A stretch of DNA of 64,000 bases, taken from Sphingobium sp. YR768. Lineage in GTDB: Bacteria > Pseudomonadota > Alphaproteobacteria > Sphingomonadales > Sphingomonadaceae. The position numbers were made by a program, and so were the translations under genes. The notes beneath the pieces were generated by a model, which worked only from the letters and a program-made list of their open reading frames with translations, made no database searches and was not told the origin of the DNA. Where the stretch lies: positions 62,001 to 126,000 of the forward strand of contig NZ_FOGE01000002.1 of the NCBI RefSeq assembly GCF_900111125.1. Direction: 5' to 3'. Shown piece after piece: positions 3,313 to 35,338 of this stretch; the first letter of the stretch is position 1, and every line of letters starts with the position of its first letter.

Positions 3313-4221
3313 CTAGTCCACCCAGTCGAGGCCGATGTCGCGATAGATGAAGCGGTCGTCTTCCCAGTCTTCCTTCACCTTGACGTGCAGGTAGAGGTGG
3401 ACCTTGACGCCCAGCATGCTGGCCAGTTCGGCGCGGGCCTTCGACCCGATTTCCTTCAGGCGCTGGCCACCTTTGCCCAGCACGATGGCGCGCTGGGTCG
3501 GGCGCGCGACCAGGATCTGCTGGTGGATTTCCACCGATCCGTCGTCGCGCTCCTTATACTGCTCGGTATCGACCGCGGCGGCATAGGGGAGTTCGGCGTG
3601 CAACTGGTGATAGAGTTGTTCGCGGGTGATTTCCGCCGCCAGCATCCGGTCGGTGGCGTCGGACACCTGATCTTCGGGGAAATGCCACGGCCCTTCGGGC
3701 ATGGCGTTGGCAAAGGCGGTCTTCAGTTCGGCAAGGCCGTCGCCGGTCTGCGCGGAGATGAAGAAAGTCTCCTCAAAACCGACCCGCTCATACAGTCTCT
3801 GGGTATGAACCAGCAGCTTTTCCTTGATGGAAATATCGACCTTGTTGAGGATCAGCCATTTGCGTTCCGGGCGATGGACCAGAGCCTCGATGATCGGCTC
3901 CATCTTGGAACCAAGACCGGCCTTGCCGTCGACCACCAGCGCGATCAGGTCTGATCCCTGCGCGCCGCCCCAGGCGGCCTGCACCATCGCACGGTCCAGC
4001 CGGCGCTTGGGCGCAAAGATGCCGGGCGTGTCGACCAGCACGATCTGCGCATCGCCCTCGATCGCGACGCCCATCACCCGGGTCCGGGTGGTCTGCGCCT
4101 TGGGGCTGGTGATCGCCACCTTCTGCCCCACCAGCGCGTTCACCAGCGTCGACTTGCCCGCATTGGGCGCGCCCACGATCGCAACGACGCCGCAGCGCTG
4201 GTTTTCAAGATTGTCCGTCAA
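3313..4221 (-). CDS. era: GTPase Era
   Basis: Ras-like GTPase that binds the 3' end of 16S rRNA and helps 30S subunit maturation; 302 aa, normal length. Seen: G1 P-loop GAPNAGKST (about residues 17-25), G3 DTPG (about 61), G4 NKVD (about 127), then a C-terminal KH domain with the GKGGQRLKEIG loop. The start is a TTG at 4221, supported by GGAG 6-9 bases upstream. That GGAG is the outer edge of the palindromic repeat at 4230-4256. In most proteobacteria era follows rnc directly in lepB-rnc-era; here a GIY-YIG gene and repeats separate them, although all point leftward. Confidence 0.97.
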   Translation of the reverse strand: MTDNLENQRCGVVAIVGAPNAGKSTLVNALVGQKVAITSPKAQTTRTRVMGVAIEGDAQIVLVDTPGIFAPKRRLDRAMVQAAWGGAQGSDLIALVVDGKAGLGSKMEPIIEALVHRPERKWLILNKVDISIKEKLLVHTQRLYERVGFEETFFISAQTGDGLAELKTAFANAMPEGPWHFPEDQVSDATDRMLAAEITREQLYHQLHAELPYAAAVDTEQYKERDDGSVEIHQQILVARPTQRAIVLGKGGQRLKEIGSKARAELASMLGVKVHLYLHVKVKEDWEDDRFIYRDIGLDWVD

Positions 4222-4229
4222 CTATAACT

Positions 4230-4256
4230 CCGTTCGCCCTGAGCCTGTCGAAGGGC
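4230..4256 (-). repeat. REP-like arm (CCGTTCG...CTGAGC...TGTCGAAG family), between era and GIY-YIG-1
   Basis: A 27-base arm beginning CCGTTCG and containing CTGAGCCTGTCGAAG. The same unit recurs at 4573-4599, inverted at 4625-4686, and at 20985-21065 and 35182-35328. It lies just downstream of the GIY-YIG gene (reading leftward), and its outer end (CGAACGGAG on the minus strand) forms the era ribosome binding site. Confidence 0.85.
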
Positions 4257-4257
4257 T

Positions 4258-4545
4258 TTACTTTTCTTTGTTCGATCGCGCCAAGCTGGAGATCAATGTC
4301 CAATCTTCCCGGATCAGAGCCAGCTTTTTGGCCCGGCTCCAGCCCTTGATCTGCCGCTCGGCCTCAAGCGCCTCCATACGCGTGCCGAAGGCTTGCGACC
4401 AGACCAGTTTTATCGGAAGGCGTGTTTGGGTGTAGCCAGGGATTTCCCCGCTCTCATGCTGGGCAATCCGCTGTTCCAGATTGTCGCTGTGACCGACGTA
4501 GAAACTGCGGTCGGCGCAATGGAGCATGTAGGCCCAGAATGTCAT
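4258..4545 (-). CDS. Small GIY-YIG nuclease family protein (copy 1)
   Basis: 95 aa single-domain GIY-YIG endonuclease of the YhbQ/UPF0213-like type. Seen from ATG 4545: WAYML in the GIY position (4-8), FYVG in the YIG position (15-18), the conserved Arg26 in NLEQRIAQH, and the metal-binding Glu63 in ALEAERQIK, so the catalytic set looks intact. A C-terminal basic SRAKKLALI block is shared with the homologue at 16563-16862. A TTG at 4566 would add seven residues. The gene splits the lepB-rnc-era operon and is bounded by copies of one repeat family. Cellular role unknown; I infer a link to the repeats because copy 2 has the same arrangement with another repeat family. Confidence 0.85.
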   Translation of the reverse strand: MTFWAYMLHCADRSFYVGHSDNLEQRIAQHESGEIPGYTQTRLPIKLVWSQAFGTRMEALEAERQIKGWSRAKKLALIREDWTLISSLARSNKEK

Positions 4546-4572
4546 ATCAGAGCAATAAGCTCCCAAGAGAAA

Positions 4573-4599
4573 CCGTTCGGGCTGAGCCTGTCGAAGCCC
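4573..4599 (-). repeat. REP-like arm upstream of GIY-YIG-1 (proximal)
   Basis: Second copy of the CCGTTCG / CTGAGCCTGTCGAAG arm, in the same orientation as 4230-4256. The GIY-YIG gene therefore lies between directly repeated arms. It faces an inverted partner at 4625-4686. Confidence 0.85.
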
Positions 4600-4624
4600 C
4601 TTCCCTTTTTCAAGAGAAGGAAAG

Positions 4625-4686
4625 CCCCCTTCGACGCCGCCTGCGGCGTCGCTCAGGACAGGCTTCGACAGGCTCAGGGCTAACGG
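4625..4686 (+). repeat. REP-like composite arm (distal, inverted) between rnc and GIY-YIG-1
   Basis: Inverted copy of the arm (CTTCGACAGGCTCAGGGC then AACGG) joined to a small hairpin GACGCCGC/GCGGCGTC (4633-4640 with 4643-4650) and GCTCAGGACAGG. The composite recurs at 35264-35328, where the hairpin is GACTGCC/GGCAGTC. Pairing is kept while the bases differ. Confidence 0.85.
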
Positions 4687-4699
4687 GTTGAAAGGAGCT

Positions 4700-5371
4700 T
4701 TATCCCGCCAATTTCTCCAGCAGCGCCTTGGCGGCTGCCGTTTCGGCTTCCTGCTTCGATGCGCCGGTCGCGCTGGCCTCGCCCGCGCCCTTGATCGACA
4801 CCGTCACGGTGAAGCGCAGCGAGTGTTGCGGACCAGAACGATCCGTCATCACATATTCGGGGGGCTTGCGCTTGTTGGCGGCGGCCCATTCCTGAAGATA
4901 GGATTTGGGGTGGCGCGGGGCGCTGGTCTGGGTGTCGACCCGGCTGCCCCACAGGCGACGGACGAGCGCACGCGCTTCCTCCAGCCCGGCTTCCAGATAG
5001 AGCGCGCCGATCAGCGCCTCCATCACGTCGCCCAGCACATTGTCACTGTCGGCCGCGCCATCGTCGCGCGCCTGCTTGCCCAGGATCAGATGCTTGGGCA
5101 CGCCGGCCCCCCGCGCGATCTCCGCGCAGGTTTCGCCCGACACCAGCGCATTGTAGCGGCGGGACAGCTTGCCCTCCGGCTCTTCGGTAAAGCGCTCATA
5201 GACCCATTCGCCGATCAGCAGGCCCAATATGCGGTCGCCCAGAAATTCCAGCCGCTCATAATTGACCGCTTTGGCGCTGCCATGAGTCAGCGCCTGTTCG
5301 AACGCGGCCCGGTTTTTGGGCGCGCGACCGATCAGGTCCTTCAGCCAGCTATCTGTGTCAGGCTTGCTCAA
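4700..5371 (-). CDS. rnc: Ribonuclease III
   Basis: Double-strand-specific endoribonuclease for rRNA and mRNA processing; 223 aa, normal length. Seen: the family signature YERLEFLGDRILGLL (about residues 38-52) with its metal-binding acidic residues, the second acidic site in GDVMEALIGALYLE, and a C-terminal dsRNA-binding domain (PKSYLQEWAAA ... GASKQEAETAAAKALL). The start is TTG at 5371, which overlaps the lepB stop as TTGA, indicating translational coupling. Second gene of the leftward lepB-rnc-(GIY-YIG)-era unit. Confidence 0.97.
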   Translation of the reverse strand: MSKPDTDSWLKDLIGRAPKNRAAFEQALTHGSAKAVNYERLEFLGDRILGLLIGEWVYERFTEEPEGKLSRRYNALVSGETCAEIARGAGVPKHLILGKQARDDGAADSDNVLGDVMEALIGALYLEAGLEEARALVRRLWGSRVDTQTSAPRHPKSYLQEWAAANKRKPPEYVMTDRSGPQHSLRFTVTVSIKGAGEASATGASKQEAETAAAKALLEKLAG

Positions 5372-6192
5372 AAGCCTTCCCCGATACGGCTCCAGCGGGC
5401 GGCGGTGAACCAGGTCCAGGGGAGCAGCCAGTTGGCGCTGCCATCGGTCGAGAAGACCGAGATCATCGCCTTGCCGACCAGATTCTTTTCGGGGACGAGG
5501 CCGATGCCGCCACCTTCGACCGCCGGGAAGCGGCTGTCGGCGCTCCGATCGCGATTGTCGCCCATCATGAACAGATGGCCTTCGGGCACCAGCACCGTGT
5601 CGCGATCATCCGCCGCGCCATCGGGCACCAGATCGAGGACGTTGTAGCTCTTGCCACCGGGGAGCGTCTCACGGAACTGCGGATAACGGCACTGCTTGCC
5701 GCCACCGGGCGCGGCCTGCTCGAATTCGGGACGATAACAGGGAGAAACGGCGCCTTCCTTGGCAGCGGCATCCTCCATGTTCGGCGTCACCGGGATGACG
5801 AGGTCGGCGACCTTCTGCTTCGGGATGGCCTGACCGTTCAGATAGACCGTGCCGCCGCGCACCGCGATCATGTCACCGGGCAGGCCGATAACGCGCTTGA
5901 TATAGTCGTTCTTCTGGTTTGGCGGCGCCTTGAACACGACCACGTCGCCGCGCTGGGGCGTGGAGGCCAGGATGCGGCCGGGGATCAGCGGGACCGAGAA
6001 GGGCAGCGAATAGCGCGAATAGCCATAGGGCCATTTGGCGACCAGCAGATAATCGCCGATCAGCAGGCGCGGCTGCATCGATTCCGATGGAATGTTGAAG
6101 GGCGAGATGATGAAGCTGCGCAGGATGAAGACGAACAGCCCCAGCTTGGCGAGAAACCAGAGGAAATCCCGCGTTTCGGATTTGGCAGTCAT
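5368..6192 (-). CDS. lepB: Signal peptidase I
   Basis: Inner-membrane serine/lysine peptidase (S26) that removes Sec and Tat signal peptides; 274 aa from ATG 6192. Seen: one N-terminal membrane segment (FLAKLGLFVFILRSFII), the catalytic Ser in IPSESMQP (Ser38), the general-base Lys in DYIKRVIGLPGD, and the C-terminal box MGDNRDRSADSRF. ATG 6192 is preferred because it places the membrane segment near the N-terminus as in the family; an in-frame start at 6273 would add 27 basic residues. First gene of the lepB-rnc-era operon, divergent from pgi. Confidence 0.96.
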   Translation of the reverse strand: MTAKSETRDFLWFLAKLGLFVFILRSFIISPFNIPSESMQPRLLIGDYLLVAKWPYGYSRYSLPFSVPLIPGRILASTPQRGDVVVFKAPPNQKNDYIKRVIGLPGDMIAVRGGTVYLNGQAIPKQKVADLVIPVTPNMEDAAAKEGAVSPCYRPEFEQAAPGGGKQCRYPQFRETLPGGKSYNVLDLVPDGAADDRDTVLVPEGHLFMMGDNRDRSADSRFPAVEGGGIGLVPEKNLVGKAMISVFSTDGSANWLLPWTWFTAARWSRIGEGF

Positions 6193-6368
6193 GGACGTTC
6201 GTCTTTTCCTTCGCTCTGGCCCGAAAAGGGGCCGTGGCGGCTTTTGCGGCGTCGTAAAGGCCGCGTCAAGCACGCGACATGGTGCATTGCACGCCGGACC
6301 CGTTTAAGCAGAGACAGAATCGACCGGTGCAGCGTCGATATCGACCAACATCATAAGAGGACAATTGC

Positions 6369-16562: not shown

Positions 16563-16862
16563 ATGAAGGTGATGCAGCCGGCGGTCTACATCATGGCGAG
16601 CAGACGGAACGGGACGCTCTATACCGGCGTCACCTCGAACCTGCCTGAACGGGTGTGGCAGCATCGCGAAGGTGTTACCGACGGGTTCACGCAGCGTTAC
16701 GGCTGCAAGATGCTGGTCTGGTACGAAATGGCGGAATCGATGGAGGTGGCCATCATGCGCGAGAAGCAGATCAAGGCAGGCTCACGGGCGAAGAAGATAG
16801 CATTGATCGTCGGGTTCAATCCCGATTGGCAGGATTTTTATCAGAGCATCGCTCAAGGGTGA
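16563..16862 (+). CDS. Small GIY-YIG nuclease family protein (copy 2)
   Basis: 99 aa single-domain GIY-YIG endonuclease homologous to the gene at 4258-4545. Seen: VYIM (8-11) and LYTG (19-22) as the GIY and YIG strands, Arg30 in NLPERVWQH, Glu67 in IMREKQIK, and the basic SRAKKIALI tail; catalytic residues look intact. ATG 16563 has GGAG seven bases upstream, formed by the flanking repeat. It sits between pccB and mce in the same direction, bounded by a repeat family different from that of copy 1 but arranged identically. Function unknown; no metabolic link to propionate is likely. Confidence 0.85.
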   Translation: MKVMQPAVYIMASRRNGTLYTGVTSNLPERVWQHREGVTDGFTQRYGCKMLVWYEMAESMEVAIMREKQIKAGSRAKKIALIVGFNPDWQDFYQSIAQG

Positions 16863-20976: not shown

Positions 20977-20984
20977 ATCACAAT

Positions 20985-21065
20985 CCGTTCGCCCTGAGCT
21001 TGTCGAAGGGCCGTACTTCTCTTGAAGACAAGAACGGGGCTTCGACAGGCTCAGCCCGAACGGGG
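20985..21065. repeat. Inverted pair of CCGTTCG-type arms before pccA
   Basis: Arm CCGTTCG / CTGAGCTTGTCGAAG (20985-21011) and inverted CTTCGACAGGCTCAG / CGAACGG (21036-21065). Same family as around GIY-YIG-1 (4230-4686). Confidence 0.85.
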
Positions 21066-21102
21066 TGAGAGGCATTGAATAAGGACTGGGACAGGAAATA
21101 GA

Positions 21103-35181: not shown

Positions 35182-35328
35182 CCGTTCGGGCTGAGCGAAG
35201 TCGAAGCCCATCACCGAGCGGAGCGAGGTCTGTCCAAAACAGGCTTCGCTCCGCTCAGCAGCACCCCCTTCGACTGCCTGCCTGTGGCAGTCGCTCAGGA
35301 CAGGCTTCGACAAGCTCAGGGCGAACAG
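35182..35328. repeat. CCGTTCG-family repeats with composite hairpin, between S9 peptidase and hslU
   Basis: Left arm CCGTTCG / CTGAGCGAAGTCGAAG at 35182-35209, a middle arm (GGCTTCGCTCCGCTCAG near 35242), and a right composite 35264-35328 with hairpin GACTGCC/GGCAGTC (35272-35278 with 35286-35292) followed by GCTCAGGACAGG and an inverted arm ending CGAACAG. Same composite as 4625-4686. Confidence 0.85.
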
Positions 35329-35338
35329 TGTTTATGGC

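Follow-up and report, generated by a model that had tools for sequence, protein, structure and literature searches.

Small stand-alone GIY-YIG nuclease genes bracketed by REP-type hairpin repeats in Sphingomonadaceae: a putative autonomous mobile repeat at the rnc–era junction of Sphingobium sp. YR768

In the window, the stretch of 64,000 nucleotides from the Sphingobium sp. YR768 genome that was analyzed here, a gene for a small GIY-YIG nuclease lies between hairpin repeats in the gap separating rnc from era. It is fairly probable that this cassette is a REP-type mobile repeat in its autonomous form, in which a GIY-YIG enzyme has taken the place of the RAYT transposase. The gene is associated with its repeats, the association is specific, and the cassettes turn over at shared junctions; the enzyme would act by cutting, and the cassette would spread by transposition.

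In the operon concerned, lepB (5368–6273, − strand; PF10502) overlaps the upstream gene rnc (4700–5371, − strand; PF14622 and PF00035) by 4 bases, as the sequence-only reading had stated, and the downstream gene is era (3313–4221, − strand; PF01926 and KH_2 matches). The 478-base gap between rnc and era (4222–4699) had been described as a repeat, a GIY-YIG gene in the operon direction and a repeat. The gene is indeed on the same (−) strand as rnc and era, an orientation that would fit the proposed continuity of operon transcription. The described composition was found, except that there are three repeat arms and not two. The nuclease gene (4258–4545, − strand) encodes 95 aa from the first ATG, and its frame is open to a TTG at 4566 (ORF 4258–4566). 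The arm on its 3′ side (4230–4256, + strand) consists of the tag CCGTTC, the stem GCCCT/AGGGC and the core GAGC-CT-GTCGA, and the arm adjoining its 5′ end (4573–4599, + strand) has the CCGTTC tag and the stem GGGCT/AGCCC. A spacer (4600–4660, assigned to neither strand) containing the nested palindrome CGCCGCCTGCGGCG separates the latter from an outer arm (4661–4686, − strand; tag CCGTTA), which is inverted with respect to the other two and makes up the left part of a 70-nt dimer. That is, the upstream side of the cassette is an inverted REP dimer and the downstream side is a single arm; in the simpler relative L062, one inverted arm stands on each side of the gene.

The nuclease belongs to the GIY-YIG superfamily: it matches PF01541 with 62.1 bits against a curated cut-off of 22.6 (E 6e-17 for the longer ORF), and it resembles PDB 1zg2 (UPF0213) by sequence (E 1.8e-12). 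No NCBIfam model matched the 95-aa protein, PADLOC gave two weak partial matches, and Rfam gave no match at the repeats. At the rnc–era and odhB–lpd junctions, the letters AG often come directly after GAACGG, the end of the CCGTTC element, and the resulting ACGGAG resembles a ribosome-binding site for the gene that follows; a CCGTTC element may, on insertion, preserve or supply translation signals.

The arms at the gap are members of a large repeat population. The repeat CTTCGACAGGCTCAG, of the hairpin type with units of 26–27 nt in the gap, occurs three times in the gap and six times in the window when up to two mismatches are allowed, against an expectation of 0.18, and none of 100 shuffled sequences reached six. 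Its 15-base core has 155 copies in the 5.73-Mb genome (up to one mismatch), against 1 for the reversed-pattern control, and CTTCGACARGCTCAG occurs there in 149 exact copies. At 30 of the 155 sites together with the window, neighboring close copies were inverted in 35 of 36 counts, made over overlapping loci, and 21 distinct inverted dimers were recognized with the tags at their outer ends (CCGTTC...GAACGG or near variants); in 16 of the 21, the cores are 28–52 nt apart. The CCGTTC repeats are thus a REPIN-like population, with many copies arranged mostly as inverted dimers. Gene-less inverted dimers of this family are also present in the window at about 20980–21070 and at 35200–35330, the second with nested palindromes, and one further gene-less dimer of the family was seen there.

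The stem of the CCGTTC family was examined with the 115 of 229 unique core matches that were kept by a tag filter. A 5-bp covarying stem was found: the Watson-Crick fraction was 0.84, against 0.46 for reshuffled arms (maximum 0.525), and 19 distinct fully paired stems occurred among the 115 repeats. The core GAGC-N2/3-GTCGA is invariant, which the search itself required. As for the predicted single-strand folding energy, one of four arms (a CGTC arm, see below) was clearly better than its shuffles, and both CCGTTC arms and one of the two CGTC arms tested were no better than theirs.

Bracketing by matching inverted arms was found for most of the stand-alone GIY-YIG genes of the family. The stand-alone genes were taken among the strongest matches, as listed for 59 Sphingomonadaceae genomes, one per genus; GIY matches in frames longer than 600 aa were excluded as UvrC genes on account of their size. 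For each gene, the 200 nt upstream were locally aligned with the reverse complement of the 250 nt downstream, and a score of at least 30 was counted as a pass. Among the matches listed, at least 44 of the 59 genomes have a stand-alone GIY-YIG gene, and 95 of the 116 genes tested, the ten of the own genome included, have matching inverted arms, with one or more such genes in 39 of the 44 genomes. The 21 failures include several genes at which inspection by eye shows a repeat on one flank, and the locus L171, which was misplaced and is counted as a failure. The corresponding value for random places of the same geometry, taken at the Era loci only, was 1 in 980. Mismatched flank pairings reached the threshold in 9.3% of cases, because repeat families are shared. 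In the window, 138 mechanical ORFs (80–250 aa) yielded three passes, all of them at its two cassettes.

Of the listed GIY genes, 68 were examined (28 + 40), the strongest per group first. The same test was also applied beyond the family: elsewhere in the class, 24 of the 35 genes passed (16 of 17 genomes), and in other Pseudomonadota 4 of 31 genes passed (3 of 27 genomes). Two kinds of genes did not pass: the YhbQ-like genes in other Pseudomonadota and the 'MWYVYILRS' kind (L220, L245, L254, L258, L299 and L303). Eleven PF01541 genes are present in the own genome. One of them is UvrC-sized and by eye lacks such arms; each of the other ten reads as flanked on both sides by palindromic repeats, which belong to several families, and nine of the ten pass the test.

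Several individual loci deserve description. The second cassette of the window (16563–16862, + strand) consists of a GIY-YIG gene with inverted arms of the CGTCATTGCGAG type, and it lies between a gene for a carboxyl transferase and one that by eye reads as an epimerase. At the nrdR–trmJ junction of the own genome (L001), the GIY-YIG gene lacks a stop codon of its own, and its frame runs on through the REP arm on the 3′ side and enters a SpoU_methylase gene, which is trmJ by reading; the fused frame has 367 aa, and the same length recurs in L122 and L123. Among the matches listed, L144–L149 of other genera have long open frames of 383–467 aa. Identical copies in S. lactosutens xwAA3 (L132, L135, L138 and L140) had been candidates for fresh transposition, and they were set aside as proof of movement: the identity extends beyond the arms, over a stretch of about 438 bp that includes the GIY cassette and is part of a longer, imperfect repeat, and all four copies are at the ends of contigs. 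The C51 and C63 copies of G001 were dropped as evidence of movement, being identical over all 3.2 kb compared and perhaps an assembly duplicate. Orientation of neighbors by the longest open frame proved unreliable in these GC-rich genomes and was abandoned.

Each nuclease lineage is paired, for the most part, with a repeat family of its own. To assign the families, core motifs were read on the two flanks of each gene; a single repeat type was present on both flanks in 97 of 183 rows, and the remaining 86 rows had either none or several. Of the labels, at least two (L145 and L149) look like errors of loose patterns. The nearest nuclease from another genome shares the repeat family for 86 of the 97, against a mean of 24% and a maximum of 44% in 5000 shuffles, and the family label changes 11 times on the nuclease tree, against 53 when shuffled; with about 74 aligned columns, many forks of that tree are open. 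When the neighbor was forced to come from a different gene context, 31 neighbors changed, 30 of these 31 still matched, and the total was again 86 of 97. The match is weakest for the family CTTGAnCCGG (11 of 16). The 97 loci fall into 55 gene-context clusters. Certain contexts are found again in different genera, as in two clusters of 9 loci, so the pattern is in part vertical.

At the genome level, CTTCGACARGCTCAG has a median of 31.5 copies where a clade-A nuclease is listed (20 genomes) and of 1 where none is (39 genomes; p 8e-6). Exceptions exist on both sides: six genomes with a clade-A nuclease hold at most 8 CCGTTC-family repeats, and six without a listed one hold 15–83 copies (G054, 83; G061, 73; G006, 38; G044, 33; G039, 27; G011, 15). 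The clade-A gene was sought again in G054, G061 and G011, and none was found there. The corresponding link for one CGTC pattern is a weak one (p 0.02–0.04). Genome G035 holds 36 copies of that pattern; no intact nuclease gene was found in it, and a decayed one, with a CGTC-type repeat downstream, lies next to what by eye reads as pheS. Tyrosine transposases (PF01797) were found in only 14 of the 59 genomes, which makes it unlikely that the repeats are generally moved by them; the own genome has a single PF01797 match, on another contig.

The rnc–era junction was then compared among relatives. Retrieval based on Era provided 80 named loci, in 69 of which rnc is beside era, and the window makes 70 junctions; the 11 loci without a found rnc (L060, L068, L107–L110, L112, L113, L117, L118 and L121) were uncounted, and among them L060 carries a nuclease copy. 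Of the 70 sphingomonad junctions, 16 have the GIY-YIG gene or a broken copy of it, 20 contain hairpin repeats that are of other kinds or partial, and 34 were scored as having none, a score that includes L063 and L065 in spite of visible remnants (in L065, the gene end and an arm), as the repeat patterns miss some arms. In Sphingobium sp. AP50 (L042; Era 98%), the closest host found, the gene is absent and a hairpin of another family (GTGCTCCTGCG...) is present instead. Gene-less dimers of the same family as the cassette occupy the junction in L084 and L103, and in L046 and L053 a CGTC-type dimer stands beside half a CCGTTC-type arm. The presence of the gene changes 15 times on the Era tree, against a mean of 14.6 when shuffled (382 of 500 as low), showing no clustering, and the well-supported branches alone force 6 changes between presence and absence.

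These comparisons bear on what had been proposed from the window alone. In many of the more distant loci the spacing of rnc and era ranges from an overlap to 26 bases, so close spacing is a common state, in agreement with the sequence-only reading. Its proposal of an insertion into the operon is supported by the presence of the gene at 16 of the 70 junctions, far from the universal presence in sphingomonads and outgroups that would have implied ancient inheritance, and by its absence in AP50; as one clean insertion it does not stand, because 20 of the 54 other junctions hold repeats. Gene-less junctions do exist, but with hairpin repeats in those 20 and a few remnants besides, the insertion ends could not be placed to the nucleotide. 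Among the junctions compared at rnc–era and odhB–lpd, no target duplication and no nucleotide-clean empty site was found.

A second junction, odhB–lpd, was examined in the own genome and 12 near relatives chosen by us, and an element was found in all 13: a cassette with GTGCTCC arms in three (L009 being that of the own genome), a CGTC-type dimer in five and a CCGTTC-type dimer in five. By eye, two families were never side by side. This looks like serial replacement of elements at junctions, the alternative being loss followed by a new insertion. The arms of several sister cassettes in the own genome and its relatives have a CGTC tag, a stem of 8–9 bp, a loop of 4–5 nt and a CC tail; such hairpins number 89 unique sequences, for which the script itself required the tag, the pairing and the tail. 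These sister cassettes fit the description of CGTC-tagged REPs, as far as it is given in the consulted portion of PMC3733652.

The junction data allow a first rival explanation to be weighed, which we regard as unlikely: that a free-standing homing endonuclease gene invades the spacers of REP dimers and recombines into empty alleles, the REPs themselves not being mobilized. Homing endonuclease genes pass through a cycle of decay and re-arrival, which the copies described here resemble; the gene does sit between REP arms, and gene-less dimers of the same family are present at rnc–era in L084 and L103. However, the pairing of repeat family and nuclease lineage holds over many unrelated sites, the ten gene-less odhB–lpd alleles are dimers of families other than that of the cassette there, and the number of CCGTTC-family repeats rises with the presence of the nuclease.

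The fate of the nuclease copies was followed at rnc–era. The motif residues of GIY-YIG nucleases are Y, Y-G, R, H and E. Ten of the 16 copies, that of the window included, are open and retain them, one (L052) is open with the motif residues partly lost, and five are broken (L050, L058, L069, L073 and L075). For the 11 open copies, L052 included, the median dN/dS is 0.12 (range 0.05–0.50; 44 usable of 55 pairs), and these copies are under purifying selection. The copy of Sphingomonas sp. Leaf33 (L119) groups with nucleases from other loci (support 96/90, bootstrap not settled), from which at least two changes between the rnc–era junction and other sites follow: either the gene arrived at the junction twice, or it arrived once and once moved away. 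The synonymous distance of the gene, over 93 codons, is below that of the host genes in the pairs window–L062 (0.35 vs. 0.56 and 0.65) and window–L080 (0.25 vs. 0.46 and 0.48) and is mixed or higher in other pairs, so that the comparison is only suggestive. Gain and loss at the rnc–era junction are rapid, and decay is frequent.

The purifying selection could also be explained if the nuclease and the REPs formed a domesticated pair with a host job, for example as intercistronic hairpins in mRNA or DNA with their processing nuclease, and were kept by selection; the recurrent sites beside housekeeping genes (rnc–era, odhB–lpd, ruvB, pheS and nrdR–trmJ) point in the same direction. This explanation seems to us quite doubtful, the more so than homing, given that presence at rnc–era is unclustered on the Era tree, that 5 of the 16 copies are broken and one has lost motif residues, and that 15 of the 59 genomes have no stand-alone GIY-YIG gene among the matches listed. 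Both explanations are less well supported than the REPtron-like reading. Mere coincidence, by which short accessory genes end up between REPs that are common in gaps (149 exact copies of one sequence; 9.3% for mismatched flanks), is most improbable, being already contradicted in this sample by the flank test (95 of 116 against 1 of 980), by the lineage-specific pairing and by the failure of the YhbQ-like and 'MWYVYILRS' kinds in the flank test.

According to the REPtron-like reading, the nuclease would recognize its own REP hairpin or tag, as a single strand or a cruciform, and would nick the DNA there; repair or replication could then copy the cassette into intergenic gaps. Many gene-less inverted dimers share the outer ends of the cassette, and these may be copied in trans by the same nuclease, which would thereby serve these REPs as RAYT is thought to serve the GTAG REPs. 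Lying after a stop codon and ahead of the following gene, and oriented with the operon, the cassette would be tolerable; later it would be lost or replaced by other REP elements. The results as a whole suggest that GIY-YIG nucleases spread a class of repeats that had no previously known mover. A broader proposal has, in our judgment, about an even chance of being correct: GIY-YIG nucleases would be the missing mobilizers of the CGTC REPs and of a third, CCGTTC-tagged superfamily, as hairpin-ended autonomous elements of about 0.4 kb that carry an enzyme unrelated to RAYT, are matched lineage by lineage, and replace one another serially at operon junctions across the Alphaproteobacteria.

In the open-licence PMC literature, among the matches listed, we found no link between GIY-YIG and REPs, which is not proof of absence. 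Within the passages retrieved, PMC9465073 has a strain table in which a RayT and a GIY-YIG gene are entered in different rows, and no other link, PMC10928387 has both terms only in unrelated places, and a term search of RepRanger 2025 (PMC12306157) gave no mention of GIY, nuclease or RAYT. The CGTC-type REPs are stated, in the consulted portion of Di Nocera et al. (2013; PMC3733652), to occur in all alphaproteobacterial orders, to include described repeats of Neisseria and Rickettsia, and apparently to have no dedicated transposase, links to transposase genes being only fortuitous. As far as that portion goes, the sister cassettes agree with them in tag, stem, loop and tail, and likewise the published repeats are mostly dimers and mostly alphaproteobacterial. 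The arms in the window have the CCGTTC tag and a different core, and are therefore not CGTC REPs. Since the nuclease is bracketed by REPs lineage by lineage, the question of what moves the CGTC REPs can be tested directly, a single small protein and short DNA hairpins being all that is required.

Among other known systems, the small stand-alone GIY-YIG proteins (UPF0213; PDB 1zg2 and 1ywl) are similar in domain and size by sequence, whereas the YhbQ-like members in other Pseudomonadota have no REP brackets. Free-standing GIY-YIG homing endonuclease genes undergo selfish gain, decay and re-arrival, and the small nuclease gene described here has a selfish-looking history of the same kind; unlike them, the cassette has hairpin arms of its own that match high-copy gene-less dimers, and no intron was seen. 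The closest parallel is given by the REPtrons and REPINs with their RAYT: in both systems, a small nuclease gene is flanked by tagged hairpin repeats in intergenic regions, the nuclease lineages are repeat-specific, and many inverted dimers lack the gene. The cassette probably works like a REPtron. It differs in that its nuclease is of the GIY-YIG type and not a Y1 HUH tyrosine transposase, that its tags are CCGTTC, or CGTC in the sister cassettes, instead of GTAG, and that the whole cassette measures only about 0.4 kb; with this enzyme in place of RAYT and with these tags, it falls outside the REPtron/RAYT family. If the REPtron-like reading is true, HUH transposases and GIY-YIG nucleases independently became the partners of REP hairpins.
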